DNA of 64,000 bases. Source: Panopea generosa (taxonomy: Eukaryota > Mollusca > Bivalvia > Adapedonta > Hiatellidae). Shown here piece after piece: positions 2,474 through 62,166 of the stretch. Numbering within the stretch: position 1 is the first letter of the stretch; each line of letters begins with the position of its first letter. Both the position numbers and the translations under genes were made by a program. The notes under the pieces are model-generated. The model ran no database searches. It had not been told where the DNA came from and saw only the letters and a program-made list of their open reading frames with translations. The stretch spans positions 12,432,133 to 12,496,132 of the forward strand of contig CM055907.1 in the NCBI GenBank assembly GCA_029582155.1, written 5' to 3'.

Positions 2474-21207
<18,734 letters not shown>

Positions 21208-37575: not shown

Positions 37576-37734
37576 CTAAGTACTATATACGTATTTACCG
37601 ACTATAATGTTGCCCACTACTGAGCTACCGGATCCCGTACAGTTGTTGTTACAGTGGTCTGTGTCGCAGCACGAATGGCACACGGGGCTTGAACGTACTG
37701 ATGGATGCAGAATAGACCTCTTTATTGGGTAACA
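37576..37734 (-). CDS. IgGFc-LU gene exon 10 (LU2, last third; 3' end uncertain)
   Basis: Acceptor tcattgacag. Encodes CYPIKRSILHPSVRSSPV then CHSCCDTDHCNNNC and GSG/VVGNIIV, with the closing CCxxxxCN. Three ends are possible: donor gtagct after 37629, donor gtaaat after 37599 (both phase 1, as in exon 7), or read-through to TAG at 37578-37576. By analogy with exon 7 (100 nt), the 106-nt version ending at 37629 fits best, which would imply further exons downstream. Confidence 0.7.
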   Translation of the reverse strand, partial: CYPIKRSILHPSVRSSPVCHSCCDTDHCNNNCTGSGSSVVGNIIVGKYVYST

Positions 37735-40700
37735 CTGTCAATGAAAACGTACTACGATCAGAAACGATATGTTAGCGGAGACAAACAGTTGACAGGTTTT
37801 TTATTTCAATACATATGACAGCTATGGTATAAAGGAGATTTAGAAGCAGTTGCCCATATCCAATGTTTAGTTTTAACTTATCAATGTTTTACTTCAAAAT
37901 GTGAAACAAGTTATTACACCGTTTACAAGTCACTACAAGTCTTCGTGGGTAGAATCGGTTTTAGGCGTATACGGAAAACGTGTCTAGCTCAAGGACACCG
38001 CATAAAGTCGTGAGGGATGATCAAACCCGTGACCCTGGACTGCGCTCTCCACACATATATATCCAATGTTTAGCACACCACTTCTAATTTTTAAAAATAC
38101 GTTACGCTTGAAAGTAAGCTACCACCAGACGCGTATTTGTCCCGTTTGGGCCATTGCGGCATATTGATCAAATTAAGGACAGTCGAAATAATGAAACAAC
38201 GAAAATACGTGAAAAGCCGAAACAACGAAAAAACGATGGATATTATTTTAACTTTTCACCATCATTGTTTCGAGAAAAAAGTCGAAAAGTTTGAAAATGG
38301 TGATGATAAAATGTCGAAACAACGATGGTGAAAAGTCGAAACTACGATGGAGAAAAGTTGAAACTACGACGGTAAGAAGTCGAAACTAAAAGTCAACCAT
38401 TTCCACTTTTCACCATCGTTGTTTCGACATCTTACCGTCGTAGTTTCTGCTTTTCAGCATCGTAATTTCGACTTTTCGATCACCATTGTTGTTTCGTCTT
38501 TACACCATCGTAGTTTCGACTTTTCACCATCGTAGTTTCGTTGTTTCGAAATTACTTAAAATACTAAACATGCCGCGATGGCCCCTACCCCAATGGGACA
38601 CCGCAGAAACTACTCGTTAAAAGGCGGTTGTTATACTCAGATTCATTCTCACACTTTTCTCAATACATTGAACTGAATGGTTTATTTGGCATGTAAGGTG
38701 ATCAACACCCCTGCAACAAATCATGTAATTACTGAGCACATAATGTACAATGACGTACCAATTTAGACGCACATCCCAGCTTGTAATGGACTGTATGGCC
38801 CCAGTTATATTCCTCAATGCTGCAAAGCTACATTGATAACACAGAGGGTTTAATGTAATTTTAGTTTTTATGTATTTCAATTAATTTTGTTTAATGATTC
38901 CTTCAAAGTCTAAAAAACAAGTGATTTCACTGGTAAGTGTCGCATGCCCCAAAAATGGTCTGTGAAAAAAACAATATATGTTATAATAGGTAGCAACGTA
39001 TCCATGAATATCAAGAGTAATGGACTAACGTTTCAGACTAGCCATGCAATTTCATGTTTTTTTTACATTACAGCGTGACCTTGACCTTTGTGTAACATCT
39101 AATGTAATGGTTTGGATATTCCAACAGATAAATGCAGGTGGCACACCATCATGACATGCTGATCACTCCATGTAAGACAAAGTTACAGACCAGACATGAA
39201 AAATCAAACAAACTGAAAATGTGACCTTGAAGTAAGGTTATGGGTCTCAACGTGACACGTCATCATGTCATGTTGATCAACTGAGCCAAGTGTTTTTGAA
39301 ATCCATCCATGTACGATATAGTTACAGGACGGTCTTGAAATCTCAAACAGATTCAAAGTGTTGTCATACAAACTCAAAGTGTAACCTTGACCTTTGAGGT
39401 ACGGGTCTAGGTCTTACTTGTGACACGTTGTCATGTCGTCTTGATCAATTGAACCAAGTTAAAGACAAAGTTACAAACCAGACATGCAATATCAAAGAAA
39501 TTGAAAGTGTGACCTTGAACTTTGAGGAAAGGTTCTTGGTCTTATATGCGACACTTAATTATGCCACGTTGATCAACTGAGCCAAGTGTTTTTAAAATGT
39601 ATCCATATGTGACAAAGTTACAGACCGGACACTAAATCTCAAACGGACTGAAAGTGTTGTCAAACAAAGTTAAATTGTGGCCTTGACGTTTGAAGTGGGA
39701 GTCTGGGTTTAAGTGGGACATATTATGTCATGTTATGTTAATCATTTGTAGCAAATATTTATGAAATCCATCTATGCATAACAAAGTTACAAGCCGGACA
39801 CGAAATCTCACACAGACTCAAAGTGTTGTCAAACAAACTCAAAGTGTGACCTTGACCTTTGAGGTACGGGTGTGGGTTTTACTCGCGACACGTCGTCATG
39901 TTTTGTTGATCATTTGTAGCAAGTATTAACAAAATCCATTTATGCATGACAAAGTTACAGGCCGGACACAAAATACCGGACGGAAATGTTTTTTGGGGTA
40001 TAAAAATTCAGTTCTCCTTATATATCAATCAGAGTCTAAGCTAAGAGATAGAGCGTCCATCTCGCATGCGAAAGGTCGTGGGGTCGATCCCCGGCAGAGT
40101 GATACTAACGACATGAAAACTGGTACTAGAAGCTTCCTCGCTTGGAGCTCAGCATTTAGATTAGAGGATAGATTAGAGGAACCTGCGGGTCTATTCGGTC
40201 CGGTGTCAGAATTATGTGACTGGATGGGGTGTACAGAACGCAGCCAAGATAAGGAAATAGCTGACTCGCTTTAGTTGAAACCATGATACTAATTATGCAA
40301 CAATGCCTTAGGCCTCACACCTCTCCTCTAACAACCAAAGCAGCGACGGGGCGGTTTGTCCGAACATCTGAGTCACTTAGGACCAATTTTGTCAAACGAG
40401 TAGAGTTTAGATTATACGATAACACGATTGTATGTGTGCATACAAGCAGCATCGTCAAATATCCACGGGTAATCCATTCCGATACTCTCCATTCATAACC
40501 CACGGGATATAACGCTTGCTCTGCGCTGTTGCTGCCAAACCGAGATGCAGCCATATGATTGGTTCCTTCACATTTTCACGAAGACAAGTTTATCCAATCC
40601 AATCACTCGTTGCAAACAGTGTTTAGATTTACTGTCAAAATGGCGTCTTCTGGTAAAACAATTTTGCGATGATGATGGATGGAGGGTATCGGAATTGGCA

Positions 40701-41303
40701 ACCGGGCGTATCCGACAATGCCAAACAGGGATGTTGCTGATTTGAATTGCTTAATATGGAGGTACATGTTTTAAATGTATTTATAAATGTTATCTTTAAA
40801 TTATTATTATTTCACCTCATCATCCTGACAAATTGTAACAGTGTGGCATTCGTCTATATTACCGACATGACCGCAGTCAAAGCACAATGGCCCTCTCTCG
40901 CTGCGGTCAGGTAGTCCTTTAATTCGAAAATAAAACATTAAAACATCACTGTTCTTAAATATATATAAATCAATTAATAAGATAACAGTTGTAATACTAG
41001 TTGTAGTAGTAACAGTAGTAGTAGTAGCAATAATAGCATTATTATCATTATTATTATAATTAGTAGTAGTAGTAGTAGAAGAAGAAGTCGTAGTAGAAGT
41101 AGTAGTAGTAGTAGAAAAAGAAGCAGTAACAGTAGTAGTAGTAGAAGAAATAGAAGTAGCAGCCATATTAGCAGCAGTAGTACTAGTAGTAGTAGTACTT
41201 GTAGTTGCAGTAGCAGTAGTAGTAGTAGTAGAAGTAGTAGTAGTACTTGTAGAAGTAGTAGAAGCAGTAGTAGTAGCAGCAATAGTAGCAGTAGCAACAG
41301 AGC

Positions 41304-41338
<35 letters not shown>

Positions 41339-41363
41339 CAGCAGCAGAAGCAGCAGCAGCAGC

Positions 41364-41406
<43 letters not shown>

Positions 41407-44400
41407 AAAATAGCAGTAGCAGTAGCAGTAGTAGTAGCAGCAGTAAAAATAGCAATAGCAGTAGTAGTAACAGTAGTAGTAGTAGTTATAGTAGTAGTAG
41501 TAGTAAATGAATTAGTATCATTAATATACATAACAACAGCACTACTGGGGAGGGCCAGTACCAGTTACTTATATTGAAGTAACTCACCATGATCCCCGCA
41601 TCCTTCTCCGTTACAGAAACTAGAATTGCAACATTCCACACATTCATTTGAAGATGCAAGCGATTCTTTGTGCTGCAGCGAACAACTCTGAAATAGTATT
41701 TAGTTTAAATGTTTAAAGATGTTTTAATAATGCTATCCTACTGATGAGATAAAGTATCTGCCGTGATTGTATGATAGGTACTGAACTTCCATTTCTTGTT
41801 TGGTGTTTTAGTGCTCAGTTTTCGATACGCATGTTACGACATATGGTCATTCATTAATTTGGTTATCTGGACATTGTTTGTTTAGAATAAAACTATAAAA
41901 AAGTATTTTTGAGCGCTATATAGGTGAGTTAAGTAGTTTTGATAAATACAAAAAAAAATGAGTCATGGTCTATATTTTGTTTAAATCCTGTTTGTAAACA
42001 ATGTAAATCCATACTTTCTCAGTTTTAAAACAGGTGGTCACACACAATACATTTATAATATTGTTTTATAAAAATGTTGTCTAGATATTTATATACCTTC
42101 TACCGATATTTTTATTTATTAATGTGAGAGGTGCAGGTACAACTAGAGCAAAACTCTTTTTACCAACATTAACGTCTCATACACCAATTAATTTTGTACT
42201 GTTCTACATATAGAGACATGTACTTCTGGAACACTGAACACATTGCCAATGGTTTTAAAGGTGTTTTGTTTCCATAAATAGTCCTCTGTTAGTCTAGGTA
42301 TGCGAGAAAAATGAGGTTGACAAGATTGCTTTTTCGCAATTTCGATGGTTTGACGATAGATCTTCTCTTTTGTCAGTCAGTTGCAGTGTATCACTACGCA
42401 TTTTAAACTATTATATCTTTATCCAATAATACCGAATGTTATCAAATCTTGGCAGAACTTACAAAAATGTTCCAATGTTCTTATATGCACAAAGAAAATG
42501 ATAAGTTCAAACATTTTCAACAAAAACAACGCCCAGCTGATTTACACAGCTCTAATTCCTTGGAAGCACTAATATTGCTACCGTCACAAAGGGGAGGTAA
42601 TTGATAAGGGAGACATTAAGCTAAAACTAACTCTAGAAGTCTTATGGAACTCTATATAGCTAGCCAAACCGTGTTTAGTCCAAAGCAAGAAGGATAAATA
42701 CGACATAAAAATATGTAACAAAAAGCAATATACAAAATGAACCTTTCTTTCTTATATCAATCAAAATTCCATAAGGGAGCTAGATATTCAAGACATTTTC
42801 TTAACGGTATTCTTAAACGGGGCGGTATCGTGATGGCCGTTCAGTACTGGTTGTACACAGGAAACGGACCCGACAGCGACTCATTTAAGATTTAGCTTCT
42901 TCGTAAACAGTAAAAAAGGCTATTTTGAATGATTACTTAATCAGTGAAAAATGGAACTAACTGTTTCTTGTACTACCTATTGCATTACGTTGTAAGGTAT
43001 TGCACGGTTATACATAACTACCTAATAGGCCATACTTTACATCGATTGTGAAAAAAATGGACTAACACAAGACGAAACATTCCAAGGCCACAACCACCAC
43101 AAAAGCAAATACATGATTACAGGCATAACTAGAATGATAATTAATACATACAGACGAAGTGACAACAAGGGCCACACCGCCTTGTGGGAAGTGGGTAGGG
43201 GAGCAGCCAGTAGCAAGCACAGCGCTGTGGAGCTTGAACCTGGTCTACGGGTGTACAGAAGTTAATAAGCTATACATAGCACGTTCCTGGACGGAACCAG
43301 TACAAAGTCATATCTACTCTGTCTCTTACCTCGTGGTTCATACAGCCTGATCTATATATTGCACTCCCATCTTTATTGAAGCGTCCGACGAAACACACCT
43401 AACAAAAACAATACCTTATTATTACAGTTTAACAATAACATAAATGTTATACATTTTTACAAATGTAATAAGTGAACGTTTCATAATAACTGATGTACAT
43501 GTAACCGCCATAATGTTCTAAATTGTCGTCTGGGAACTGTTTGCAAACATAATCAAATCAAAGCGCTGTAACATACACTTTATATACTTAATATACATGA
43601 ACGGACGTAACCTACACAAAGTTCTCAATTGTCGTCTGGAAACTGTTTGCAAACATATTAAAATCAAAGCGCTGTGACAAATACTTTATATACTTAATAT
43701 ACATGAACTGACGTAACCGACATAATGTTCTAAATTATCGTCCGGGAAATGTGTGCAAACTTAATAAAAACCAATGCGTCGTAAAATACGCTTTATATAT
43801 CTAGAATATAAAACGTATTTTTATTTCAAAATTTCGGAATTGTGTAAATCATCATTGACTTGTACAATGTAAAAGTCGTTTACTACGCTTGCTTTTCGAA
43901 AAAACTAACAACAAACGTATTGGCACTTTGTACAGAAAATATTTAAATCTGGGAAATAAATTTGATTGAAAAAGACGAACACGCACATAGCGTTATGTTT
44001 AAATTAAATGAAGAAATACTTATTCCAGATCATTGCAGGTACTCTGCCTATTTTTTTTCCCAAATAATTAACATCATATTTACAGAAATAAACATCTAAA
44101 AGATAATTAGTTGAAATACTACGAACATCATCATGATAGTTCGACCGAACATCGACGATGTAGTCCGATTGTTATAATTAACCAATCAGAACATTATCAG
44201 AATCCCGTTACACTTTTCAAGACCGAACATCTAGGAGGTATTCCGAATGTTTTAATAAACCAATCAGAACATAATCAGAATCCCGTTTCATTATTTTGTC
44301 ATAAAAGAAATTCTGAAGAAAAGCAAACCTCATCGATAATCAGGACCGAACATCGCCGAGGTAAACCGATTATTTTAATAAACCAATCAGAACATTATCA

Positions 44401-47400
44401 GAATTATGTTACATTTTTTTGTAGCAAAGATTAAATTCTGAAGAAAAGCAAACATTCTCGTAAGTAAGATTTGATTGACCTAGAAAAATACACCTCCACA
44501 GTATTTATGTTTAAATACAATTAAGAAACATTTTAAAAGGAAAAAAATATTTGCCAACCATCTCATCAGCAAAAACTGAACACAGAAATAAAAATCTAAA
44601 CGAAAGCCTGATATAATACTATGGAAATCGCAAAGGTAGTTCGATTGTTGGAACCAATAAATCAGAAAATATATCAGAATACCGTTTCATTTCTATTAAA
44701 AAAAGATAGCCAAAGCATCGAACATGACCAAGACTAGTGTTTCAGATCCTAACAGAAGTCGCGTAATAGCCATGCGTGAAACTAATTTACTCTGAAAGAC
44801 TCAGCATTTTAGTTATTTGTTTTACCTCATTTTCTTGACATGCATGTACCCTGTCGCAGTACTGGAGATGAGACATGTCCTCACACGAGTAGCAAAAGTT
44901 CCTCAAACCTTGAAAAATAAATGGAGTCGTGTTTCTACATAGACGATAACTCATAACCGCCTACAGTAGTTAAACATATGTTGACAAGCAACATAAACTA
45001 AATTGATAACTTGAGTTGTATTAATTATTTGAAAATCACATTATCCTATTGAATTACGGCTCTGTGTACAAATAGAGTTCCACGCCTGTGATGGTTAAGA
45101 AGAAGAGGCTTTTGTTTTCTTATTCTAATCCTTAATTATTTTCAGAAGACGCTGACACTATAAAGGAATAAACACAGGCCAATGCCAAATTGCTTAAAGG
45201 CTTACCGTTTTCTGCCAGGGTAGAGAGTAATATAGGAGGGACTAATGTACAAACAGCTGTATTCTTTACCTGTCAGTTATGATACAGTGTAGTAAAACTA
45301 GGCCATAAAATCGTCTGCTTCAAGCCTGCAGAGAGTGTATAAACACAAATCCATGTGTATTTGTTAACTTAGAGTGTATGAGCTCACATGCTCCTCCCAA
45401 GAATTTCAATGTTTAGGCAGTTGGAGTTAAACTTGATTTCAACGGTTTTTGAAAATTATTTATTTGACAATTAGATGTATTAACAATAATCTAGCAGTAT
45501 TTAAAATTATAACAAAAATGCAGAAGTGACTGTGACATCTTAATAAAGGGTTCCCTGATTTGAATCATGTATGTAATTATACAAAACAAGCCCCAGAGAT
45601 ATGGTTATTTTGGCTTAAAATAGTCTATCTAATTAAAAATTGAAACCGGTCTTATGCTCAGAACAGAATGGAACGTAGTTTGCGTTATTGTATTTTATAT
45701 CACTTCAACGAATGAAGATGAATATCATTTTGTGTTAATATGTCCTAGTTATCAGAATATTCGTTAAAGTTTTAATAAACTATAGTATTACAAACGGCCA
45801 AGTATGCTTAAATTCATTGAGTTAATGCAAAGTAAGAAGCATTCAGTTTTACTAAATTTTTGTAAGTATGTTTATCAAGCTTTTGGTGTTCGTAAATCCT
45901 TGTATAATTAAACAGAATAAATGTTTTCATCTATCTATTTGTGTTGATCTACTGAAGTATATAATAACAAAGTGTGTTAAATAGGGTATTGATATTTGTC
46001 CAACCTCAAAAGAAAATATTTAATAAAAAGGTATTTAAATAACGTAATATATCTAATTTATTTTATTCCAACATGATTGATTATTCGCTATTATCTACTA
46101 GTCATGTGTTTAATTTATGTAACGAGACGCATTATATTTTAAAATTACTGAATAAAATTATTTGAATCTTGAATCTCTCTTCTTTGTCTGTATTGAGTTA
46201 AAATAGTTTTACACTTTTTCCTTGTTGTAAGACTTTTTCTTGTGATGATATTCATAAAGTTACGAAATAAATGGAAATTGGGTCAGAAGCCCAGCCTTCT
46301 TTAAATAAAGTGGGTAGATAGACACATTATTTTTAATGTCCTCCCCAATATCTTATAAGTTATTACCTATTTATCTAACGTGAATCATCTGTTGGCCTTT
46401 GTTTACATGCAAGAATGTACATGTACCAGGAGACTGGTTTATATTGGACATGGAAAGTTGACATTTTTGTATCTTTCGTTCAAAAGTAGATCTGCTCTTA
46501 AATATTGTCTTTGGAATGATATGTACATGTACTTCCTTTCATTACACATTAATTTACATTCGAAGTTTAAGAAACATATTTTTTTGGTAATAAAGTAAAA
46601 AGAAAACCATTCGATGTAATTGAAGAAAAAATGATTAGGGACAATTTTAAGGGTAGGTAGGCATTAGAAAATTATACTAAAGATGATATATATTGTACTT
46701 ACAGTCAAAATAGTATATATAATTAGCAATAATGTACCTGACACTGTAGAATTAGTAACCATGGTAGCAGTAACGCGTGTTGGTTGTACTGAGGCTGTTG
46801 AAGTACTTGGACGTTTTGTTGTAGAAGTAGATGATGTGGTAGATGCTGTTGATGAACCATCGCACGTTCCTATATTTAGTTTATCAAATCTAGCAAGTAG
46901 TAGCCGTAGAAAATGTTGTAGGTGAAGATACAGTCAAAGAACCATCACATGTGACCAAATTTAGCTGATAAAGCGTTCATTAAAACTGATAAAAGACACT
47001 AGTTTGCCAACATGGTAAAGACTTAGTTCATGTATTTTTTCTCGATCTTCAAAGTTTGGCTTCTAATGTGTTTGTTTGTCAATTATGATTCGAGTTCAAA
47101 TTAATATATATTATTATATAGATATATGTTGTTATAGTCGCTACAAAATACAATCGAGAACCATAGATATACGCTCAAAAGTTCTCATTAAAGCAAAAAA
47201 AATCAACAACTGGATGTCAAACCAATTATATATATATAATATATATATATTATCTAGTTGAAGTAATAAATTAATTGTAGTGTTAAAATTAATACACACG
47301 CGTAAGTTGAACAAGTTGTGGATTAGAAATTAATTAGATGTAAATTTAAATATACCTTGTAAATCCATGCCTGCATAATATCCGTATCCAAAATAATGTT

Positions 47401-50400
47401 TAAAGCCGTACACGAGTAGACCAAACTTAACTGTCACATCCTGATGTATCATTGTATGGTAACCTTCATTCACAGTGAGGGTTAGTACTGAGTAGTTACT
47501 ATATGGTGCCGGTACACCAACTGTCGTGCCATTGACTGGAGACCCGTCAAGACGAATTCCTGCTACCTGATCCGTTGGTACTATCACCGCCAAATGATGT
47601 ATAAATCCAGTAGCTGGTGATGGTACCATGAACGTATAGTTGTGTATAAACTGTGATACTGCTGGTACCACCGTCATGAATGGATCTCCGTCAACGTTGT
47701 CGTAATTCTGACTTACTGAATATTGAGTAACGCTGACGGGGGCATCCGCAGTTACAACGACAACTTCACTGCCGAAGAAGTAATCTTTTTTATCAGACGG
47801 TTGTACAACTTCAACTATTGTATTTGTTTTGTTTTTCAACGTCACATTTGTTGACATAGATTCTGATAAAACACGTATCATAAACGCCTTAGGTCGAATT
47901 AGCGGTACAATATATGCTTTTTGCCATGTGTCAGTCGGAAGCATTTGTGAGGCTATGTGATCTGCATCTTTTACTTTATCCGGAATTTCTGAATATGCTG
48001 AACCAGATATAACTGTTACAGGTTTATTAGATCGTATCACAGTTCCAGTTAAGTCTCCAGGGAATGGCACTTGCACCTGATACACTTCCATACTGTTTAA
48101 CGTGATATTGCCAATAGTATCTCTACCAAAGAAAACGTTTGTATTGTCTTCACCAGCTATTACAATCGCTCTGCTACCGTAGTTATAACCAGGAGAGTGA
48201 AAAGATGTATAGGAAAATACCATAAAGTGTGTACTCAGGGTCTGTACGGGATATATAAGATACGATTCGGTAGAATACAATTTGTAATAATTGGTCACCA
48301 GAACTGAGATGTCTATATTTGATGTTATTCGTATGCCCCTCTGACCTTGAAATGTGTCATCCTCTTGTATCGAGGCGTCGATAGGAATACGTAAGTTACT
48401 TCCGGGCGATATGTTGTAATGTTTGTTGACACCAAGGTAAGGAATTTCCAGTGTCAATGTACCTGTGTCAACTGAGATAATATCTAAGAAAACGTTTCCT
48501 CTCCAGCGACTAGCTAATGCATCCAAGATTCCAAATATGAATTCTCGTCCAATACTACCTGATAAACAGACCATTATATAAATGTATCATGAACATTTAA
48601 TTTGATACATCATTCATGCACATATTTAAGTTATATTAACACAGTAAGATGACACAAACTGCATGTTACATTAACTACTATTTCAAAACATACGAACGCT
48701 GGTTTATTTATCAATACACACAAATTAATAGCAAACGTAAGCATATATGACATGGACATTAACTATTTAGACAAAATCAAATATTTACCTTTGAGCAAGC
48801 TGTTAAATGTGCAACCCGCCGCCCCCTCTCCCAGATTTTGCTTTGATAATAATTTCTAAATGTGTATTAACTCCATTTTCAACATATAACATGATTTTAA
48901 TGGCATATCCAATTGTATTAGTGGACGAAGACCGAGGTCCATCGTCCTTCTGTAAGTAACTGGCATACTTTTCACATAAGTCTTTTAAACAAGTTGGGCT
49001 CAAACCCATGACCTCAGCGGTGAGAGATTAGTGACCATTTTTTCGAAAGCTCCTAATTAGACCACTCGGTCACGGAGGAATCAAACTATATTAACACGAT
49101 GGCGAACCAATGTGACCTAGTGGTGTAAACACTGGAGGGAAATTGCCCATTTTAGGTAACATAACTTCCCTTATATATCATGAGGTTTGACGTATAGAGA
49201 GGCACCTTCGTTGATATCAAGTGGCCATCCACAACTCATATTTTTTTTAACAAAAATGCAACAGTGTATATTGCTCAATTGAAACCGTTATGGTATAGAG
49301 TGGTGCAGTTTACTAAAACAACACGCCGTTGCACAATTTGTAAAAACTATGAGTTTTGCATGGTCCTTCTGCGTGACACTTTTCCTCATATTTTTACACC
49401 ACTCCATACCAGACGGTAACGTGGGTTCGTGATTATGTAATAAGTTCAATTAATTTAAAATATAATTTATAGTGGGAATCCACGCACGCACCCACGTACA
49501 GCAAGCTCGTACATGCGCATACACGCACACGCAAACCACCCAAAACAAACAAAATAGAACTAAAATGCGCTATAACAAAAACTGTTTCATTTATTGCTGC
49601 ATATATTTTGTTACTTACTTGATTTCCCTCCATTTTTACTGCTACAATGGTTTGTGTGAATCGATCCGAACTCTTGAAACAGTAAACCCTACAAGTATAT
49701 TCATATTGATTAGTCATCATTATAATTCTACAGACAGTCTCTGGGACGATTGGCCGTTAGCTGTGTTATACGGCGATGAATCACCTATGTGTCGGGAATC
49801 AGTCAGTGACATGAACAGGTAAGGTATGTCAAGTACTGGCGACAGTCTCTGTGACGATTGGCCGTGAGCTGTGTTATACGGCGATGAATCACCTTCCTGT
49901 CAGGAATTAGTCAGTAACATGTAGAGGTAAGGTTTGTCTATTAATGGCGACAGTATCTATGATGATTGGCCGTGAGCTATGTTATACGGTGATCTATCAC
50001 CTTCCTGCCAGGAATTAGTCAGTGACATGTAGAGGTAAGGTGTGTCTAGTACTGGCGACAGTCTCTGTGATGATTGGTCGTGAGCTATGCTATACGGCGA
50101 TGAATCACCTTCCTGTCGGGAATTAGTCAGTGACATGTAGAGGTAAGGTGTGTCTAGTACTTGCAACGGTCTCTGTGATGATTGGCCGTGAGCTGTGTTA
50201 TACGGCGATGAATCACCTTCCTATCAGGAATTAGTCAGTGACATGTAAAGGTAAGGTGTGTTTAGTATGGGCGACATTATATGTGATGATTGGCCGTGAG
50301 CTGTGTTATACGGCGATGAATAATCTTCCTGTCGGGAATTAGTCAGTGACATGTAAAGGTAAGGTGTGTCTAGTACTGGCGACAGTCTCTGTGATTATTT

Positions 50401-53400
50401 GCCGTGAGCTATGTTATACGGCGAAGAATCGCCTTCCTGTCGAGAATAATTCAGTGACATGTAGAAGTAAGGTGTGTCTTGTACTGGCGGCAGTCTCTGT
50501 GATGATTGGTCGTGAGCTGTGTTATACGGCGTCGAATCACCTTCCTGTCGGGAACTAGTCAGTGACATGTAGAGGTAAGGTGTGTTTAGTATGGGCGACA
50601 GTCTCTGTGATGATTGGTCGTGAGCTGTTTTATACGGCGATGAATCACCTTCCTGTCGGGAATTAGTCAGTGACATGTAGAGGTAAGGTGTGTTTAGTAT
50701 GGGCGACAGCCTCTGTGATGATTGGCCGTTAGCTGTGCTATACGGCGATGAATCATCTTCCTGTCGGGAATTAGTCACTAACATGTAGAGGTAAGGTGTG
50801 TCTAGTACTGGCGACAGTCTCTGTGATTATTTGCCGTGAGCTATGTTATACGGCGAAGAATCGCCTTCCTGTCGAGAATTATTCAGTGACATGTAGAAGT
50901 AAGGTGTGTCTAGTACTGGTGACAGTCTCTGTGATGATTGGCCGTGAGCTGTGTTATATGGCGATGAATCATCTTTACGTCGGAAATTTGTCAGTGACAT
51001 GTAGAGGTAAGCTGTGTTTAGTATGGGCGACAGTCTCTGTGATGATTGGCAGTGAGCTGTTTTATACGGCAATGAATCACCTTCCTGTCGGGAACAAGTC
51101 AGTGACATGTAGAGGTAAGGTGTGTCTAGTACTGGCGACAGATCCTGTGATGATTGGCCGTGAGCTTTGTTATACGGCGATGAATCACCTTCCTGTCGGG
51201 AATTAGTCAGTGACATGTACAGGTAAAGTGTGTCTAGTACTTGCGACAGTCTCTGTGATGATTGGCCGTGAGATGTGTTATACGGCGATGAATCACATTC
51301 CTGTCGGGAATTAGTCAGTGACATGTACAGGTAAAGTGTGTCTAGTACTTGCGACAGTCTCTGTGATGATTGGCCGTGAGCTGTGTTATACGGCGATGAA
51401 TCACCTTCCTATCAGGAATTAGTCAGTGACATGTAGAGGTAAGGTGTGTTTAGTATGGGCGACATTATATGTGATGATTGGCCGTGAGCTGTGTTATACG
51501 GCGATGAATAATCTTCCTGTCGGGAATTAGTCAGTGACATGTAAAGGTAAGGTGTGTCTTGTACTGGCGACAGTCTCTGTGATGATTGGTCGTGACCTGT
51601 GTTATACGGCGTCGAATCACCTTCCTGTCGGGAACTAGTCAGTGACATGTAAAGGTAAGGTGTGTTTAGTATGGGCGACAGTCTCTGTGATGATTGGTCG
51701 TGAGCTGTTTTATACGGCGATGAATCACCTTCCTGTCGGGAATTAGTCAGTGACATGTAGAGGTAAGGTGTGTTTAGTATGGGCGACAGTCTCTGTGATG
51801 ATTGGCCGTTAGCTGTGCTATACGGCGATGAATCATCTTCCTGTCGGGAATTAGTCACTAACATGTAGAAGTAAGGTGTGTCTAGTACTGGCGACAGTCT
51901 CTGTGATTATTTGCCGTGAGCTGTGTTATATGGCGATGAATCATCTTTACGTCGGAAATTTGTCAGTGACATGTAGAGGTAAGCTGTGTTTAGTATGGGC
52001 GACAGTCTCTGTGATGATTGGCAGTGAGCTGTTTTATACAGCGATGAATCACCTTACTGTCAGGAATTAGTCAGTGACATGTAGAAGTAAGGTGTGTCTA
52101 GTACTGGCGACGGTCTCTGTGATGATTGGCCGTGAGCTATGTTATACGGCGATAAATCACTTTCCTGTCAGGAATTAGTCAGTGACATGTAGAGGTAAGG
52201 TGTGTCTAATACTGGAGACGGTCTCTGTGATATTTGGTCGTGAGCTGTGTTATACGGCAATGAATCACCTACTTGTCAAGAATTAGTCAGTGACATGTAG
52301 AGGTTAGGTGTGTCTAGTACGTGCGACAGTCTCTGTGATGATTGGCTTTGAGCTGTGTTATACGGCGATGTATCACCTTCCTGTCGGGAATTAGTGAGTG
52401 ACATGTAGAAGTAAGTTGTGTCTAGTACTTGCGACAATCTCAGTGATGATTGGCCGTGAGCTGTGTTATACGGCGATGAAACATCTTCCTGTCAGGAATT
52501 AGTAAGTGACATATAGATGTAAGGTGTGTCTAGTACTGGCGGCATTTTCTGTGATGATTAGTCGTGAGCTGTGTTATACGGCGAAGAATCACCTTCCTGT
52601 CAGGAATTAGTCAGTGACATGTAGAGGTAAGGTATGTCTAGTACTGGCCACATTTTCTGTGATGATTAGTCGTGAGCTGTGTTATACGGCGATGAATCAC
52701 CTTCCTGTCAGGAATTAGTCAGTGGCATGTAGAGGTAAGGTGTGTATAGTACTGGCGACAGTCGCTGTGATGATTGGCCGTTAGCTGTGTTATACGGCGA
52801 TGAATTACGTTCCTGTCGGGAATAAGTCAGTGACTTGTAAAGGTAAGGTGTGTCTTGTACTGGCGACAGTATCTGTGATGATTGGCTCTGAGCCTTGTTA
52901 TTCGGCAATAAATCGCCTTCCTGTCAGGAATTATTCAGTGACATGTAGAAGTAAGGTGTGTCTAGTACTAGCGACAGTCTCTGTGATGATTGGCCGTGAG
53001 CTGTGTTATAATGTGATGAATCACCTTCCTGTCAGGAATTAGTCAGTGACATGTAGAGGTTAGGTGTGTCTAGTACTGGCGACAGTCTTTTTGATGATTG
53101 ACCGTGAGCTGTGTTATACGGCGATGAATCACCTTCCTGTCCGGAATTAGTCAGTGACATGTAGAGGTAAGGTGTGTCTAGTACTGGCGATAGTCTCTGT
53201 GTTGATTGGCCGTGAGCTGTGTTATACGGCGATGAATCATCTTCCCGTCGGGAATTAGTCAGTGACATGTAGGGGTATGGTGTGTCTAGTACGTGCGACA
53301 GTCTCTGTGATGATTGACCGTGAGCTGTGTTATACGGCGGTGAATCGCCTTCCTGTCGGGAATGATTCAGTGACATGTAGAAGTAAGGTGTGTTTAGTAC

Positions 53401-56400
53401 TGGCGACAGTCTCTGTGATGATTGGCCATGAGCTGTGTTATAAGGCGATGCATTACCTTCCTGTCGGGAATTAGTCAGTGACATGTAGAGGTAAGGTGTG
53501 TTTAGTACTGGCGACAGTCTCTGTGATGATTGGCCGTGAGCTGTGTGATACGGTGACGAATTGCCTTCCTGTCGGGAATTATTCAGTGACATGTAGAAGT
53601 AAGTTGTGTTTAGTACTGGCGACAGTCTCTGTGATGATTGGCCGTGAGCTGTGTTATACTGTGACGAATCATCTTCTTGTCAGGAATTAGTCAGTGACAT
53701 ATAGAGGTAAGGTGTGTCTAGTACTGGCCGCATTTTCTGTGATGATTAGTCGTGAGCTTTGTTATACGGCAATGAATCACCTTCCTCTCAGGAATTAGTG
53801 AGTGACATGTAGAAGTAAGGTGAATCTAGTACTGGCAACAGTCTCTGTGATGATTGGCTGTGAGCTGTGTTATACGGCGATGAATCACCTTCCTGTCGGG
53901 AATTAATCAGTGGCATGTAGAGGTAAGGTGTGTCTAGTACTGGCAGCATTTTCTGTGATGATTAGTCGTGAGCTGTGTTATACGGCGATGAATAACCTTC
54001 CTGTCAGGAATTAGTCAGTGACATGTAGAGGTAAGGTGTGTCTAGTACTGGCCGCATTTTCTGTGATGATTAGTCGTGAGCTGTGTTATACGGCGATGAA
54101 TTACCTTCCTGTCGGGAATTAGTCAGTGATATGTTGAAGTAAGGTGTGTCTTGTACTGGCGACAGTCGCTGTGATGATTGGCCGTTAGCTGTGTTATACG
54201 GCGATGAATCACGTTCCTGTCGGGAATATGTCAGTGACTTGTAAAGGTAAGGTGTGTCTTGTACTGGCGACAGTATCTGTGATGATTGGCCGTGAGCTGT
54301 GTTATACGGCAATGAATCGCCTTCCTGTCGGGAATTATTCAGTGACATGTAGAAGTAAGGTGTGTCTAGTACTGGCGACAGTCTATGTGATGATTGGCCG
54401 TGAGTTTTGTTATACTGTAATGAATCATCTTTCTCTCGGAAATTTGTCAGTGACATGTAGAGGTTAGGTGTCTAGTACTGGCGACAGTCTTTTTGATGAT
54501 TGTCCGTGAGCTGTGTTATACGGCGATTAATCACCTTCCTGTCAGGAATAAGTCAGTGACATGTAGAGGTAAGGTGTGTCTAGTACTGGCGACAGCCTCT
54601 GTGATGATTGGCCGTGAGCTGTGTTATACGGCGAAGAATCATCTTCCTGTCAGGAATTAGTCAGTGACATGTAGGGGTAAAGTGTGTCTAGTACGTGCGA
54701 CAGTCTCTGTGATGATTGTCCTTGAGCTGTGTTATACGGCGGTGAATCGCCTTCCTGTCGGGAATTAGTCAGTGACATGTAGAAGTAAGGTGTGTTTAGT
54801 ACTGGCGACAGTCTCTGTGATGATTGGCCGTGAGCTGTGTTATACGGCGATGAATCATCTTCCTGTCTGAAATTTGTCAGTGACATGTAGAGGTAAGTTA
54901 TGTCTAGTACTGGTGACAGTCTCTGTGATGATTGGCCGTGAGCTGTGTTATACGGTGACGAATTGCCTTCCTGTCGGGAATTATTCAGTGACATGTAGAA
55001 GTAAGTTATGTTTAGTACTGGCGACAGTCTCTGTGATGATTGGCCGTGAGCTGTGTTATACGGTAACGAATCATCTTCCTGTCAGGAATTAGTAAGTGAC
55101 ATATAGAGGTAAGGTGTGTCTAGTACTGACCGCATTTTCTGTGATGATTAGTCGTGAGCTGTGTTATACGGCGATGAATCACCTTCCTGTCAGGAATTAG
55201 TCAGTGACATGTAGAGGTAAGGTGTGTCTAGTACTGGCCGCATTTTCTGTGATGATTAGTCGTGAGCTGTGTTATACGGCGATGAATCACCTTCCTGTCA
55301 GGAATTAGTCAGTGACATGTAGAGGTAAGGTGTGTCTAGTACTGGCGACAGTCGCTGTGATGATTGGCCGTTAGCTGTGTTATACGGCGATGAATCACGT
55401 TCCTGTCGGGAATAAGTCAGTGTCTTGTAAAGGTTAGGTGTGTCTTATACTGGCGACAGTATCTGTGATGATTGGCCATGAGCTGTGTTATACGGCAATG
55501 AATCGCCTTCCTGTCGAGAATTATTCAGTGACATGTAGAAGAAAGGTGTTTCTAGTACTGACGACAGTCTCTGTGATGATTGGCCGTGAGCTGTGTTATA
55601 CTGTGATGAATCGCCTTCCTGTCGGGAATTATTCAGTGAAATGTAGAAGTAAGTTGTGTTTAGTACTGGCGACAGTCTCTGTGATGATTGGCCGTGAGCT
55701 GTGTTATACGGTGACGAATCACTTTCAGGAATTAGTCAGTGACATGTAGAAGTAAGGTGTGTTTACCACTGGCGACAGTCTCTGTGATGATTGGCCGTGA
55801 GCTGTGTTATGAGGTGACGAATCACTTTCCTGTCAGGAATTAGTCAGTGACATGTAGAGGTAAGGTGTGTCTAGTACTGGCGACATTCTCTGTGATGATT
55901 GGCCGTGAGCTGTGTTATACGGCGATGAATCATCCTCCTGTTGGGAATTAGCCAGTGACATTTAAGGGTAAGGTGTGATTGGTCGTGAGCTGGGTTATAC
56001 GGCGGTGAATTGCCTTCCTGTCAGGAATTTGTCAGTGACATGTAGATGTTAGGTGTGTCTAGTACTGGCGACAGTCTCTGTGATGATTGGCCGTGAGCTG
56101 TGTAATACGGTGACGAATCACTTTCAGGAATTAGTCAGTGACATGTAGAAGTAAGGTGTGTTTACCACTGGCGACAGTCTCTGTGATGATTGGCCGTGAG
56201 CTGTGTTATGAGGTGACGAATCACTTTCCTGTCAGGAATTAGTCAGTGACATGTAGAGGTAAGGTGTGTCTAGTACTGGCGACATTCTCTGTGATGATTG
56301 GCCGTGAGCTGTGTTATACGGCGATGAATCATCCTCCTGTTGGGAATTAGCCAGTGACATTTAAGGGTAAGGTGTGATTGGTCGTGAGCTGGGTTATACG

Positions 56401-58848
56401 GCGTTGAATTGCCTTCCTGTCAGGAATTTGTCAGTGACAATTAGATGTTAGGTGTGTATAGTACTGGCGACAGTCTCTGTGATGATTGGCCGTGAATTGT
56501 GTTATACGGCGATGAATCACCTTCCTGTCGGGAATTAGTCAGTGACATGTAGGAGTAAGGTGTGTATAGTACTGGCGAAACTAATTGTGATGATTGGCCG
56601 TGAGCTGTGTTATACGGCGATGAATCACCTTCCTGTCCGGAATTAGTCAGTGACATGTAGGAGTAAGGTGTCTAAAGTACTGGTGACAGTCTCTATGATG
56701 ATTGGCCGTGAATTGTGTTATACGGCGGTGAATCTCCTTCCTGTCGGGAATAAGTCAGTGACATGTAGGAGTAAGGTGTGTCTTGTACTGGCTACAATCT
56801 CTGTGATGATTGGCCGTGAGCTGTGTTATACGGCGGTGAATCACCTTCCTGTCGGGAATAAGTCAGTGACATGTAGGAGTAAGGTTTGTATTATACTGGC
56901 GACAATCTCTGTGATGATTGGCCGTGAGCTGTGTTATACGGCGATGAATCATCTTCCTGTCAGAAATTTGTCAGTGACATGTAGAGGTTAGGTGTGTCTA
57001 GTACTGGCGACAGTCTCTGTGATGATTGGCCGTAAGATGTGTTATAAGGCGATGATTCACCTTCCTGTCAGGAATTAGTCAGTGACATGTAGAGGGAAGG
57101 TGTGTCTAGTACCGGCGACAGTCTCTGTGATGATTGGCCGTGAGCTGTGTTTGAAGGCGATGCATTACCTTCCTGTCGGGAATTAGTCAGTGATATGTAG
57201 AGATAATGTGTGTTTAGTATGGGCGACATTCTCTGTGATTATTGGCCGTGAGCTGTGTAATACGGAGATGAATCATCTTCCTGTCAGGAATGAGTCAGTG
57301 ACTTGTAGAGGTAAGGTCTCTCTAGTACTGGCGACAGTCTCTGCGATGATTGTCCGTGAGCTGTGTTATATGGCGATGAATCATCTTCCTGTCCGGAATT
57401 AGTCATTGATTTGTAGAGGTAAGGTGTGTCTAGTACTGGCGACAGTCTCTGTGATGATTGTCCCTGTGCTGTGTTATACGGCGATTAATCATCTTCCTGT
57501 CAGGAATTAATTGGTGACATGTAGAGGTAAGATGTGTCTAGTATTGGCGACAGTCTCTGTGACGACTGGACGTGAGCTGTGTTATACGGCGCTGAATCTT
57601 CTTTTTGTCGGGAATTAGTCAGTGACATGTACAGGTAAGGTATGTCTAGTACTGGCGACAGTCTCTGTGATGATTGGCCGTGAGCTGTGTTATACGGCGA
57701 TGAATCACTTTCCTGTCGGGAACTTGTCAGTGACATGTAGAGGTAAGGTGTGTCTAGTACTGGTCGCAGTTTCTGTTATGATTGACCGTGAGCTGTGTTA
57801 TACGGCGATGAATCACCTTTCTGTCGGGAATTAGTCATTGACATGTAGAGGTAAGGTGTGTCTAGTACTGGCGACAGTCTCTCTGATGATTGGCCGTGAG
57901 CTTTGTTATACGTCGATGAATCATCTTCCTGTCGGGAATTAGTCAGTGACATGTAGAGGTTAGGTGTTTTTAGTACTGGCGACAGTCACTGTGATGAATG
58001 GCCGTTAGCTGTGTTAAACGGCGAATAATCACGTTCCTGTCAGGAATTAGTCAGTGACATGTAGAGGTAAGGTGTGTCTAGTACTTGCGGCAGTCTCTGT
58101 GATGATTGGCCGTGAGCTGTGTGATACGGCGATGAATCACCTTCCTGTCGGGAATAAGTCAGTGACATGTAGAAGTAAGGTGTGTCTTGTACTGGCGACA
58201 GTCTCTGTGATGATTGGTCGTGAGCTGTGTTATACGGCGATAAACAATCTTCCTGTCGGGAATTAGTCAGTGACATGTTGAGGTAAGGTGTGTCTAGTAC
58301 TGGCGACGGTCTTTGTGATGATTGGCCACGAGCTGTGTTATACGGCGATGAATCACGTTCCTGTCGGGAACTAGTCATTGGCATGTAGAGGATAGGTGTG
58401 TCTAGTACTGGCGACGGTCTCTGTGATGATTGGCCGTGAGCTGTTTTATATGGCGATGAATTCCTTTCCTGTCGGGAACTAGTCAGTGACATGTTGGGGT
58501 AAGGTGTGTCTAGTAGTGGCGACGGTCTCTGTGATGATTGGCCGTGAGCTGTGTTTTACGGCGATGAATCACCTTCCTGTCGGGAACTAGTCAGTGACAT
58601 ATAGAGGTAAGGAGTGTCTAGTACTGGCAAACCACCTAGCGGTTTCAAGGAACGATAATTAGGTATGCTGGCCGCCGTTAAATAACTCACGTAATGTTGG
58701 AAAAAGGCGTAAAACCCCAAACAAAGAAATATAGAAGGACGAAATTTAGTTCGTTTACATTCAATATAATATAATAAACTGAATTCTGCTACACAAAAAC
58801 AACAAGTTTAAAACTTACCAATATGAAAGCGAATATAAATTTCCTCAT
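37576..58848 (-). CDS. Secreted IgGFc-binding-domain protein with Thr/Ser linker and two LU (three-finger) domains, ten exons
   Basis: Exons in gene order: 58819-58848, 49619-49688, 47356-48558, 46738-46869, 44826-44908, 43330-43398, 41588-41687, 40816-40916, 38759-38827, and a last exon starting at 37734. All junctions are GT-AG and in phase, giving about 655-671 residues. Domains: signal peptide (MRKFIFAFIL joined to GLLFQEFG); an IgGFc-binding N-terminal type domain (about 34-434, from GREFIFGIL to YFGYGYYAGM); a Thr/Ser-rich linker (about 435-478) suited to O-glycosylation; LU1 (about 479-562); LU2 (about 563-655). Each LU domain has 12 cysteines, starting CxxC and ending CCxxxxCN. The 3' end is uncertain: read-through reaches TAG at 37578-37576, but donors at 37628 (gtagct) or 37598 (gtaaat) could lead to further exons, such as a membrane anchor. 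The founding family (FCGBP) is secreted mucus protein; a recognition role here is inference. TATAAA lies about 75 bases before the ATG. Confidence 0.82.
37935..38055 (-). mobile_element. tRNA-derived SINE, family A, diverged
   Basis: The minus strand contains GGGTTTGATCATCCCTCAC, GGTGTCCTTGAGCTAGACA and CGATTCTACCCACGAAGACT. It lies in the last intron of the IgGFc-LU gene. Confidence 0.6.
38140..38600. mobile_element. Foldback element with internal repeats
   Basis: The outer ends TTTGGGCCATTGCGGCAT and ATGCCGCGATGGCCC are inverted repeats. Inside, the left half has repeated CGAAACAACGATGGTGAAAA and GTCGAAACTACGATGGAGAA; the right half has the complementary CACCATCGTTGTTTCGAC and CACCATCGTAGTTTCGAC. 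The two halves can pair into a long multi-register hairpin. No reading frame of interest. Confidence 0.85.
38759..38827 (-). CDS. IgGFc-LU gene exon 9 (LU2, middle third)
   Basis: Acceptor atcaatgtag, donor gtacgt, 69 nt, phase 0 at both ends. Encodes LCSIEEYNWGHTVHYKLGC then ASKL, aligning with exon 6 at both cysteines. Confidence 0.8.
39055..39990 (-). repeat. Tandem repeat carrying AGGTCA direct repeats, reversed orientation
   Basis: Five to six units with GTGACCTTGACCTTTGAGGT, GTCATGTTGATCAACTGA and GACAAAGTTACAGACCGGAC. This is the reverse complement of the family at 15560-16700. Confidence 0.85.
40010..40290 (+). mobile_element. tRNA-derived SINE, family C
   Basis: Head AAGAGATAGAGCGTCCATCT with B-box GGGGTCGATCCCCGG, then TAGAAGCTTCCTCGCTTGG, GGTCCGGTGTCAG and GTGACTGGATGGGGTGTAC, matching 17495-17750 reversed. 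The open frame through it is incidental. Confidence 0.8.
40455..40725. mobile_element. MITE with imperfect 40-bp terminal inverted repeats
   Basis: The left arm CGGGTAATCCATTCCGATAC then TCTCCATTCAT pairs with the right arm ATGATGGATGGAGGGTATCG then GAATTGGCAACCGGGCG. The interior is about 190 bases with no transposase. A collapsed relative lies at 30170-30275. Confidence 0.65.
40816..40916 (-). CDS. IgGFc-LU gene exon 8 (LU2, first third)
   Basis: Acceptor cgaattaaag, donor gtgaaa, 101 nt, phase 1 in and 0 out. Encodes LPDRSERGPLCFDCGHVG then NIDECHTVTICQDDE, which aligns with exon 5 at CxxC, C and C. Confidence 0.8.
40985..41515 (+). repeat. Imperfect AGT/AGC/AGA trinucleotide array
   Basis: More than 500 bases of AGT units mixed with AGC, AGA and ACA. 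All minus-strand frames stay open as poly-Thr/Leu/Tyr-type tracts, which is a composition effect. It sits in the intron between LU1 (exon 7) and LU2 (exon 8). Confidence 0.97.
41588..41687 (-). CDS. IgGFc-LU gene exon 7 (LU1, last third)
   Basis: Acceptor actatttcag, donor gtgagt, 100 nt. Encodes SCSLQHKESLASSNECVE then CCNSSFCNGEGCGDH plus one base (phase 1). CCxxxxCN is the closing signature of Ly6/uPAR domains. Confidence 0.84.
41700..43325. other. IgGFc-LU intron 6, no further feature
   Basis: AT-rich intron sequence without a recognised repeat family. Short frames at 42381-42572 and 43159-43350 lack motifs, and the latter overlaps exon 6 on the opposite strand. Confidence 0.45.
43330..43398 (-). 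CDS. IgGFc-LU gene exon 6 (LU1, middle third)
   Basis: Acceptor ttttgttag, donor gtaaga, 69 nt, phase 0 at both ends. Encodes VCFVGRFNKDGSAIYRSGC then MNHE. Identical in length and phase to exon 9. Confidence 0.82.
43490..43780 (+). repeat. Tandem repeat of about 119 bp, 2.5 copies
   Basis: ATGTTCTAAATTGTCGTCTG, GTTTGCAAACATAATCAAAT, CAAAGCGCTGT and TATACTTAATATACATGAAC occur about 2.5 times in a row, in intron 5. Confidence 0.9.
44125..44430 (+). repeat. Irregular tandem repeat with AACCAATCAGAA
   Basis: Three units of GACCGAACATC, TTTTAATAAACCAATCAGAA and CATTATCAGAATCCCGTT, with the related AACCAATAAATCAGAAAATA at about 44658. The 107-codon frame through it is a repeat by-product. Intron 5. 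Confidence 0.85.
44826..44908 (-). CDS. IgGFc-LU gene exon 5 (LU1, first third)
   Basis: Acceptor ttttcaag, donor gtaaaa. Encodes LRNFCYSCEDMSHLQYCD then RVHACQENE, with the opening CxxC of a three-finger domain. Enters in phase 1, leaves in phase 0. Confidence 0.8.
45656..46175 (+). mobile_element. Non-LTR retrotransposon (CR1/L2-like) 3' fragment
   Basis: Frames separated by one shift encode NEDEYHFVLICPSYQNIR (from 45711) and then YYKRPSMLKFIELMQSKK, continuing to FGVRKSLYN before a stop at 45909-45911. The pattern D(E)xHFLxxCPxYxxxR followed by RP...KFIxLMxS is the usual C-terminus of CR1/L2-clade reverse transcriptase proteins. The 3' UTR ends in TTTGAATCTTGAATC, a short repeat tail typical of such elements. 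It is 5'-truncated and frameshifted, and lies in intron 4 of the IgGFc-LU gene. Confidence 0.7.
46738..46869 (-). CDS. IgGFc-LU gene exon 4 (Thr/Ser-rich linker)
   Basis: Acceptor aaatatag, donor gtacat, 132 nt, phase 1 at both ends. It encodes TCDGSSTASTTSSTSTT and KRPSTSTASVQPTRV, then ATMVTNSTVS. This is mucin-like and probably an extended O-glycosylated spacer between the IgGFc-type domain and LU1. Its symmetric phase lets it be gained or lost without shifting frame. Confidence 0.78.
46893..46970 (-). pseudogene. Decayed duplicate of the Thr/Ser linker exon
   Basis: The minus strand reads CAGCTAAATTTGGTCACATG then TGATGGTTCTTTGACTG. It resembles the working exon 4 start, AACTAAATATAG|GAACGTG then CGATGGTTC. 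It would encode TCDGSLTVSSPTTFSTATT before a stop. The acceptor AG is lost (TTTGG instead of ATAG) and no donor remains. It lies between exons 3 and 4. Confidence 0.55.
47356..48558 (-). CDS. IgGFc-LU gene exon 3 (IgGFc-binding N-terminal domain)
   Basis: A single 1203-nt exon (acceptor gtttatcag, donor gtatat) encodes 400 residues. It opens with GREFIFGILDAL and closes with KHYFGYGYYAGMDL. Such paired GxEFxF and YGF...GYxYxxGM landmarks bound the N-terminal domain of IgGFc-binding proteins. Internal landmarks include SYLIYPVQTLSTHF, SGSAYSEIP and MLPTDTWQKAYIVPL. Several NxT/S sites are present. No stop or frameshift. Confidence 0.92.
48840..49080 (-). mobile_element. tRNA-derived SINE, family B
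   Basis: The minus strand begins CCGTGACCGAGTGGTCTAAT. It has GGTCATGGGTTTGAGCCCAA as B-box, then TACTTACAGAAGGACGATGG and the tail TGTTGAAAATGGAGTTAAT. In intron 2 of the IgGFc-LU gene. Confidence 0.78.
49095..49437. mobile_element. MITE related to 29802-30068
   Basis: The left end CACGATGGCGAACCAATGTG and right end ACGTGGGTTCGTGATTATG are diverged terminal inverted repeats. Internal TTTTAGGTAACATAACTTCC and CACTCCATACC match the first copy. In intron 2. Confidence 0.65.
49619..49688 (-). CDS. IgGFc-LU gene exon 2
   Basis: Acceptor atatacttgtag and donor gtaagt bracket 70 bases. Read from phase 0 they give GLLFQEFGSIHTNHCSSKNG then GKS plus one base. That base joins GT of exon 3 to make a Ser codon, leading directly into SIGREFIFG. 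Both the phase and the signal-peptide sense support inclusion. Confidence 0.75.
49735..58630 (+). repeat. 108-bp satellite array filling intron 1 of the IgGFc-LU gene
   Basis: About 80 head-to-tail copies of a 108-bp unit: TAGTACTGGCGACAGTCTCT, GTGATGATTGGCCGTGAGCT, GTGTTATACGGCGATGAATC, ACCTTCCTGTCGGGAATTAG, TCAGTGACATGTAGAGGTAA and GGTGTGTC. Since 108 is a multiple of 3, long frames open on both strands (for example minus 53032-53592 and 58040-58492) with a 36-residue period. Multi-unit blocks are duplicated: about 1190 bp (50220 versus 51410) and about 399 bp (55721 versus 56120). No conserved start, splice or codon bias points to expression. Confidence 0.95.
58631..58818 (-). other. IgGFc-LU intron 1, promoter-proximal part
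   Basis: Single-copy sequence between the satellite edge and the exon 1 donor. No other feature seen. Confidence 0.5.
58819..58848 (-). CDS. IgGFc-LU gene exon 1 (signal peptide start)
   Basis: ATG at 58848 encodes MRKFIFAFIL, a charged start then a hydrophobic run, followed by the strong donor gtaagt (58818-58813), phase 0. The distance to exon 2 is 9.1 kb, but the frame and the hydrophobic continuation there (GLLF) complete a credible secretion signal. Confidence 0.72.
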
Positions 58849-61450: not shown

Positions 61451-62166
61451 GCACACAACCAAGAACATAAATTAACAGACTTTCTTTTATTGAATATACT
61501 CATGAGTCAGTTTATATTTGAGTTTTATACTCACCTTGCACGTGAGATGCTGCACGTGAACTGTTGATTCGGCGAGCATTTTATTAATTTTCAAATGCGT
61601 TAAATATAAGCATATCATAGTCTCATTAGACTTTCATAGACAACACATATTATTTCATTAATGTAACAACATTTACAGTTAATCTAAAATGTAAAAACGC
61701 AAACTTTAAGATGCAAAGCGTAAATTAATCCATTGGTGTATAAACTGTTCTTTGACTCGGTCGACCTTGACCTTGTAAACAGTGATTGTACTCGAGAAAA
61801 AAACTAACTTTCTTAGATAGTGATCAATCCCTCTTTTATTTTGATTTTCTATAATTCCTAGAATCTTGATGGGAAAGTATATATGATCCCTCAATATTTG
61901 AGATTTTGATTTTTACAGGTTATTGAAATAGAATTTCGTCCCAATCGTTATTGCAGGTACCTAGTTAAATATAATTCGTTGACTAATATACAAATTGAGC
62001 AAGTGTTCTGTTCCATTTTGTGTTAAATGTTCAGACGACCAATAAATGTGTACATGTATTGGTGTTATTTAATATGTTTTGAGTACTCATGTAAACACAA
62101 TATTGTTTGTTTTCACTTAAATTTAGTATTGGACGATAGAAAGAGAAAACTTTTATATTTTTACAG
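61451..62166. other. Spacer
   Basis: AT-rich, no gene recognised. Two CACGTG E-boxes lie 14 bases apart at 61539 and 61553. On the minus strand ATG 61579 runs 15 codons to a good donor (gtgagt at 61534), a weak first-exon candidate with no partner. Confidence 0.35.

Follow-up and report, generated by a model that had tools for sequence, protein, structure and literature searches.

Ten exons of a probable gene on the minus strand of the window

We analysed a window of 64,000 nucleotides (C14:12432133-12496132) from the Panopea generosa assembly, which comprises 1.47 Gb in 39 contigs; other loci are named below by contig and position in the same way. On the minus strand of the window, ten segments splice into one stop-free frame of 671 amino acids (Table 1). 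Exons 2-10 are preceded by AG acceptors, and exons 1-9, as well as exon 10 at 37599, are followed by GT donors. The ten-exon chain of the original prediction was re-found at the same minus-strand positions, with its lengths and phases and with the frame open, and the joined exons confirmed both the phase-1 borders between modules after exon 3 and the two phase-0 cuts that had been placed identically in the two LU domains.

Table 1. Features of the IgGFc-LU gene and tandem arrays in the window
Feature	Window position	Strand	Length	Phase (start-end)	Description
Exon 1	58848-58819	-	30 nt	donor 0	MRKFIFAFIL, signal peptide start
Exon 2	49688-49619	-	70 nt	0-1	remaining signal peptide, one Cys; the least certain exon
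Exon 3	48558-47356	-	1203 nt	1-1	IgGFc_binding domain; without cysteine
Exon 4	46869-46738	-	132 nt	1-1	linker, Thr/Ser 56%, one Cys
Exon 4 read-through	46664-46737	-			hydrophobic 24-residue tail, then stop
Exon 5	44908-44826	-	83 nt	1-0	LU1 part a
Exon 6	43398-43330	-	69 nt	0-0	LU1 part b
Exon 7	41687-41588	-	100 nt	0-1	LU1 part c, terminates CNxxGCGDxG
Exon 8	40916-40816	-	101 nt	1-0	LU2 part a
Exon 9	38827-38759	-	69 nt	0-0	LU2 part b
Exon 10	37734-37599	-	136 nt	donor 1	LU2 part c, measured to the conserved phase-1 donor IIVG/GTAAAT
Exon 10 read-through	37598-37576	-			KYVYST, then stop; probably intron
52-bp-unit array	5000-13809		8.8 kb		about 171 copies
AGT trinucleotide array	40987-41505				about 173 units
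108-bp minisatellite	49733-58628		8.9 kb		82 copies
51-bp-unit array	59399-61451		2 kb		open frames up to 391 codons

The original prediction had proposed HMM searches as a check. Run on the joined protein, Pfam matched IgGFc_binding (PF17517) to residues 132-418, over positions 2-297 of the 297-position profile (6.7e-48; 163.9 bits, cut-off 25.6), and matched the three-finger family Toxin_TOLIP to two stretches (2e-5; 25.7 bits, above the cut-off of 21.2), while UPAR_LY6 stayed below its cut-off (0.0029; 18.5 bits, cut-off 24.8). A sequence search of the PDB returned weak matches only, mainly to three-finger proteins (best E 0.039). Both LU domains show the ten consensus cysteines and the CC-x4-CN end of the LU pattern plus two extra cysteines, giving 12 per domain, and both are flanked by phase-1 introns, as expected of the LU/Ly6-uPAR family. 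Within each domain, two phase-0 introns lie immediately ahead of the fifth and the seventh consensus cysteine. The cysteines nearest to the cysteine-free IgGFc exon, at residue 25 (exon 2) and residue 437 (exon 4), could bond across the IgGFc domain. An AlphaFold2 model of exon 3 by itself was discarded (pLDDT 37.9), and scans for tRNAs and Rfam families in the window found none. A 52-bp-unit array also lies in the window, and the AGT array occupies part of the intron separating LU1 from LU2.

IgGFc-LU loci across the same genome

We searched the whole genome with PF17517 and obtained 65 matches at E <=0.001, which formed 56 loci after pieces less than 6 kb apart had been joined. By exon 3 identity, the loci closest to the window were C14:27.6M (51%), C15:13.6M (48%), C14:62.3M (46%), and C16:21.7M (46%). 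A protein search with LU1 and LU2 gave at least 109 exon matches at up to E 10. Same-strand LU matches lay within 25 kb downstream at 24 of the 56 IgGFc loci, on 6 contigs, although the figure of 24 overstates the number of independent genes because near-copies on C12 may be segmental or assembly duplicates. Both LU1 and LU2 were found at 22 of these 24 loci, LU1 preceding LU2. Of the 109 LU matches, 85 had this downstream placement, as against 3 same-strand matches upstream and 13 opposite-strand matches within 25 kb. The other 32 IgGFc loci, several of them partial, had no LU match within 25 kb downstream. A whole-genome Toxin_TOLIP search yielded 41 weak exon-length matches (best E 0.086). 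As judged from sequence, the IgGFc and LU layout is that of a gene family; both domains are known, and what is new, by the open-licence literature searched, is their pairing and its persistence across the family. On C12, at least five loci between 36.9 and 37.5 Mb (L003-L007) are near-copies; the near-identical IgGFc-LU copies at C12:36.8-37.5M lie about 0.4-0.5 Mb from each other and may represent tandem segmental duplications or assembly haplotigs. At C12:37425839-37426663, the IgGFc match falls within a 1977-codon open frame.

The exon structure of the LU domains was compared between genes, and LU exons overlooked by the first pattern were re-sought in hand-set ranges. In 11 of 11 genes read, the LU1 c-exon ended in CNxxGCG, one or two further residues and then G/GT, and a length of 101 nt could be read for the LU2 a-exon, also in 11 of 11, with nearer or alternative sites in some genes. 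All 13 pattern-matched IgGFc-linked copies had an acceptor 8-14 nt ahead of the first LU1 cysteine, and at C1:18.8M the intron between LU1 a and LU1 b was lost. Twelve cysteines were present in 20 of the 20 complete LU domains compared. In a tree of 22 LU rows, including two without an LU2 c-exon (C12:37.036M and C12:37.044M), one branch parted LU1 from LU2 with a support of 100/100; within one gene, LU1 and LU2 were 22-40% identical (seven genes). With LU1 and LU2 each in a clade of its own (100/100) and 12 cysteines kept in 20/20 domains, the LU duplication predates the gene copies: the two domains were present ahead of the spread of the family and have since been retained as a pair. Between C12:37.036M and C12:37.044M, dN was 0.075 and 0.051 and dS 0.361 and 0.167, which points to selective constraint on this close pair, the only one tested; dS was saturated in comparisons of the window with C14:27.6M and C14:62.3M and of these two with each other. 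Because the same exons and phases recur in paralogues, the LU1 c-exon ends are kept, and dN is lower than dS in one close pair, the exon chain is not a product of chance.

LU content at the 24 loci was one LU1 plus one LU2 at 21, LU2 alone at two (C12:42.0M and C6:10.63M), and the cassette twice at one. These counts could shift through exons missed by the search, and at C14:27.6M, where the script typed two LU2b matches, the second covers the LU2 c-exon. At the doubled locus, C12:66.25M, a second LU1a-LU1c-LU2a-LU2c series lies about 10 kb farther on; over 133 columns, its LU1a shares 85% identity with that of the first series. The linker exon (78 nt, phase 1-1) is doubled too, and no IgGFc match was found between the two series, even at E 10. 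The simplest reading is a four-LU gene, the alternative being a copy that lost its IgGFc head. The original prediction was that the gene is arranged for an increase in its number of LU domains, as symmetric phase-1 modules can be duplicated without frame loss. In principle this phase-1 argument holds, but the unit duplicated is the linker-LU1-LU2 cassette, seen doubled at 1 of 24 loci; expansion of the LU count itself was not borne out, with one of each domain at 21 of 24 loci and no gain of a single LU seen. An 80-bp minisatellite (L021 1788-2897), with a unit length not divisible by three, is similar to the 3' half of the c-exon of LU2 at C12:66.24M.

LU pairs without a head, in whose neighbourhood even a cut-off of E 10 gave no IgGFc match, were found at C14:2.29-2.31M and C3:0.95M. 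Over the 4 kb read at C14:2.29M, no acceptor stands at the usual place before the LU1 a-exon, although there is one 32 nt ahead of the first cysteine, and the frame of this exon is open back to a Met and a signal-peptide-type hydrophobic stretch (score 2.93). Among the 13 IgGFc-linked copies, a Met-led stretch of scorable length occurred in the window frame alone (0.54); at C1:18.8M, a Met lies 14 residues ahead of the cysteine, just short of the limit of 15. The LU pair at C14:2.29M likely begins with its own signal peptide, the hydrophobic run of which partly overlaps a T-rich stretch.

Among the IgGFc exons whose next 10 kb was taken for reading, six had no LU exon in that stretch, and Pfam was run on five of them. 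SRCR exons (2.5e-36) at C11:10.8M and TSP_1 exons (6.5e-12) at C13:51.3M lay within 10 kb after the IgGFc exon on the same strand, and at C12:63.8M, C3:16.4M, and C16:34.2M there was no Pfam match at E 0.1 in the next 10 kb. At the sixth locus, C14:24.52M, LU exons sit 9-16 kb away. The IgGFc head may thus carry other tails (SRCR, TSP1), if these exons share one gene with it.

The ends of the gene and alternative readings

At the 5' end, an exon of the exon 1 type (Met plus hydrophobic residues, phase-0 donor) was present upstream in three of the four closest paralogues, as compared with 4 of 105 real 5-kb control segments and 0 of 39 shuffled ones. Candidates for exon 2 numbered 2-9 per 5 kb in the paralogues versus 1.5 in shuffled sequence, under a scan rule that misses the window's own exon 2, and the support for this less certain exon comes from its fit within the window. 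Intron 1 is mostly filled by the 108-bp minisatellite, the unit of which is divisible by three, so that the array contains long, probably non-coding open frames. The 51-bp-unit array lies directly upstream of exon 1.

At the 3' end, LU2 is followed by a pair of hydrophobic residues and then by a Gly whose codon is divided as G/GT ([IV/L][IV]G/GT) in nine of nine genes, the window included; in four of the nine, where the script had stopped short, this donor was taken by eye from the printed letters. Past the donor, the sequence differs in every paralogue read. Because the 136-nt phase-1 donor is kept in all nine genes, at least one further exon should follow exon 10, which is probably not terminal, and the stop codon at 37576 probably lies in an intron. 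An end of the gene at exon 10 was set aside on account of the counterpart of this donor in 9/9 genes, and a 106-nt exon 10 was rejected, since it is the donor at 136 nt that is conserved. As exon 10 is probably non-terminal, the exon chain does not settle the description of the protein as secreted. No exon 11 was recognised in the 6.6-16 kb beyond exon 10 in the five closest genes, Pfam gave no match at E 0.1 over 10 kb past exon 10, and conserved-frame searches after LU2 returned mainly dispersed repeats and no convincing common exon. Uncontrolled scans for transmembrane or GPI exons gave many scattered candidates.

We give an even chance to the product being a type I membrane or GPI-anchored receptor, in which the missing exon 11 would encode a transmembrane helix or a GPI signal. 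The donor conserved beyond LU2 shows that the chain continues, and GPI and type I membrane forms are usual among LU proteins according to an excerpt of PMC6600238. Furthermore, hydrophobic-tail phase-1 frames, mutually dissimilar, lie 1.2 and 1.6 kb past LU2 at C14:24.57M and C1:18.8M. However, over 16 kb past exon 10 and in seven paralogues, hydrophobic exons were no commoner after LU2 than in shuffled sequence.

Reading through the exon 4 donor produces a hydrophobic 24-residue tail, TVSGTLLLIIYTILTVSTIYIIFSIIF, followed by a stop. Such tails are rare, arising at 9 of 5111 GT sites in the window with five tandem arrays excluded, at a threshold chosen after the exon 4 case had been seen and with ten read-throughs inspected. 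A Thr/Ser linker exon in phase 1-1 was present in two of the four closest paralogues (C14:27.6M and C16:21.7M), and none passed the scan at C14:62.3M and C15:13.6M. The tail would allow a minor isoform, in which an alternative end within it gives a membrane-anchored IgGFc-linker form and normal splicing gives the long LU form. We consider this improbable, as the tail is absent from three of four other linker exons and is weaker in the fourth, where it does not terminate in a stop.

Slightly less probable still is a division into two genes, an IgGFc-linker gene stopping with exon 4 and, downstream of it, a distinct gene for LU1-LU2. The exon 4 tail does resemble a GPI or membrane tail of a kind uncommon in the window, the second linker at C12:66.25M also reads into a hydrophobic stretch, shorter and weaker, and the headless LU1-LU2 copy at C14:2.29M with its apparent signal peptide makes a split possible in principle. 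However, read-through of the linker ends within two residues at C14:27.6M and C16:21.7M and within four at the first C12:66.25M linker, exon 5 has a normal acceptor 14 nt ahead of the first LU cysteine, and the frame upstream of it scores just 0.54 for a Met-led hydrophobic stretch. LU exons, moreover, stand downstream on the same strand behind 24 of 56 IgGFc loci on 6 contigs. A separate gene for the LU exons, the case named beforehand as refuting the prediction, is thus unlikely here, and the recurrence of LU exons behind IgGFc loci, together with the open frame, supports the predicted single gene of IgGFc domain, linker, and two LU domains. That the locus is a decayed copy with exons surviving by chance, as the minisatellite swelling intron 1 by 8.9 kb and stops in some relatives might suggest, is very improbable in view of 671 codons without a stop, intact splice sites throughout, and the retention of 24 of 24 LU cysteines.

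We consider it likely, on sequence evidence, that the window carries one minus-strand gene of a large family, with a predicted secretory-pathway product made up of an IgGFc domain, a linker, and an LU pair.

Origin, relatives, and meaning of the IgGFc-LU architecture

Exons 1-2 are predicted to encode a signal peptide by which the product would enter the secretory pathway. The mature part would consist of an IgGFc_binding domain from a single exon, a short Thr/Ser linker, probably O-glycosylated, and two 12-cysteine LU domains of three exons each. Because whole-module borders are in phase 1 from exon 3 onwards, linker-LU1-LU2 could have joined the IgGFc head by intron recombination; this joining would have occurred once, long ago, with inheritance as a pair since. 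The protein may act outside the cell or at its surface, where the IgGFc head and the LU pair would each form one binding face with the linker as spacer, and the further exon would decide between release and anchoring. Adhesion or recognition in mucus or epithelium, at the mucosal surface, is the function we tentatively propose, at a little less than an even chance.

Excerpts of the functional literature describe oyster proteins annotated as IgGFc-binding that their authors tie to mucus and larval adhesion (PMC6337334), a clam FCGBP gene whose fold changes under LPS and peptidoglycan are negative (PMC7430831), limpet adhesive proteins homologous to IgGFc-binding protein that are VWD types (PMC7333891), and a mussel gene with PF17517 listed in an expression table (PMC11817969). 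In the excerpts, ‘IgGFc-binding’ is a name given by similarity, partly to VWD proteins, and it may concern other genes.

Vertebrate FCGBP consists of a signal peptide and an IgGFc_binding domain followed by VWD/C8/TIL repeats. The window gene is alike in having the IgGFc_binding domain after a signal peptide, whereas it has a linker and two LU domains in place of the VWD/C8/TIL repeats. Pfam gave no VWD, C8, or TIL match in the joined protein or in three frames of the 10 kb past exon 10, and the predicted departure from the vertebrate VWD/TIL layout thus stands. The likeness to FCGBP does not imply that the window protein binds IgG. Bivalve IgGFc-binding proteins of oyster, Manila clam, and mussel are alike by similarity annotation or PF17517, as far as the excerpts describe them; for the oyster proteins, EGF and VWD domains are named (PMC6337334), and LU domains are mentioned in none of the excerpts.

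Two-LU proteins such as uPAR resemble the window gene in their tandem LU domains, phase-1 flanking introns, and CC-x4-CN end, but the window gene differs from them by its large non-LU N-terminal domain. It also has 12 cysteines per LU domain, where uPAR and the LU family have 10, and two phase-0 introns per LU domain, whereas a typical LU domain is described in the excerpt of PMC6600238 as having a single internal intron, located where loop 2 has its tip. The cases that the same excerpt names of LU domains set within non-homologous proteins are GPIHBP1, SP-10, and TGF-beta receptor ectodomains (PMC6600238). In each of these, one LU domain is accompanied by an additional N-terminal segment or by a kinase, unlike the window gene, in which an LU pair stands behind a 400-residue extracellular domain, an arrangement found at two dozen loci. 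We recognised no description of the IgGFc and LU combination in the open-licence literature; protein databases, which lay outside the search, may list it.

It is conceivable, if somewhat short of evenly balanced, that linker-LU1-LU2 is a phase-1 cassette moving as a unit while the IgGFc head swaps tails (LU pair, SRCR, TSP1), and that the two would jointly create a combinatorial surface-recognition repertoire with LU as a true mobile module. Unusually for a three-finger domain, LU would serve as a shuffled building block in the IgGFc-LU family. The family is a counter-case: at two dozen loci, an LU pair with symmetric borders in phase 1 follows an unrelated extracellular domain, the cassette is doubled at one locus, and one copy is apparently headless. 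Furthermore, it suggests that in this lineage IgGFc_binding domains act as heads that can be exchanged on tails rich in cysteine, and such exchangeable heads would bear on how an antibody-less animal varies its mucosal recognition proteins.
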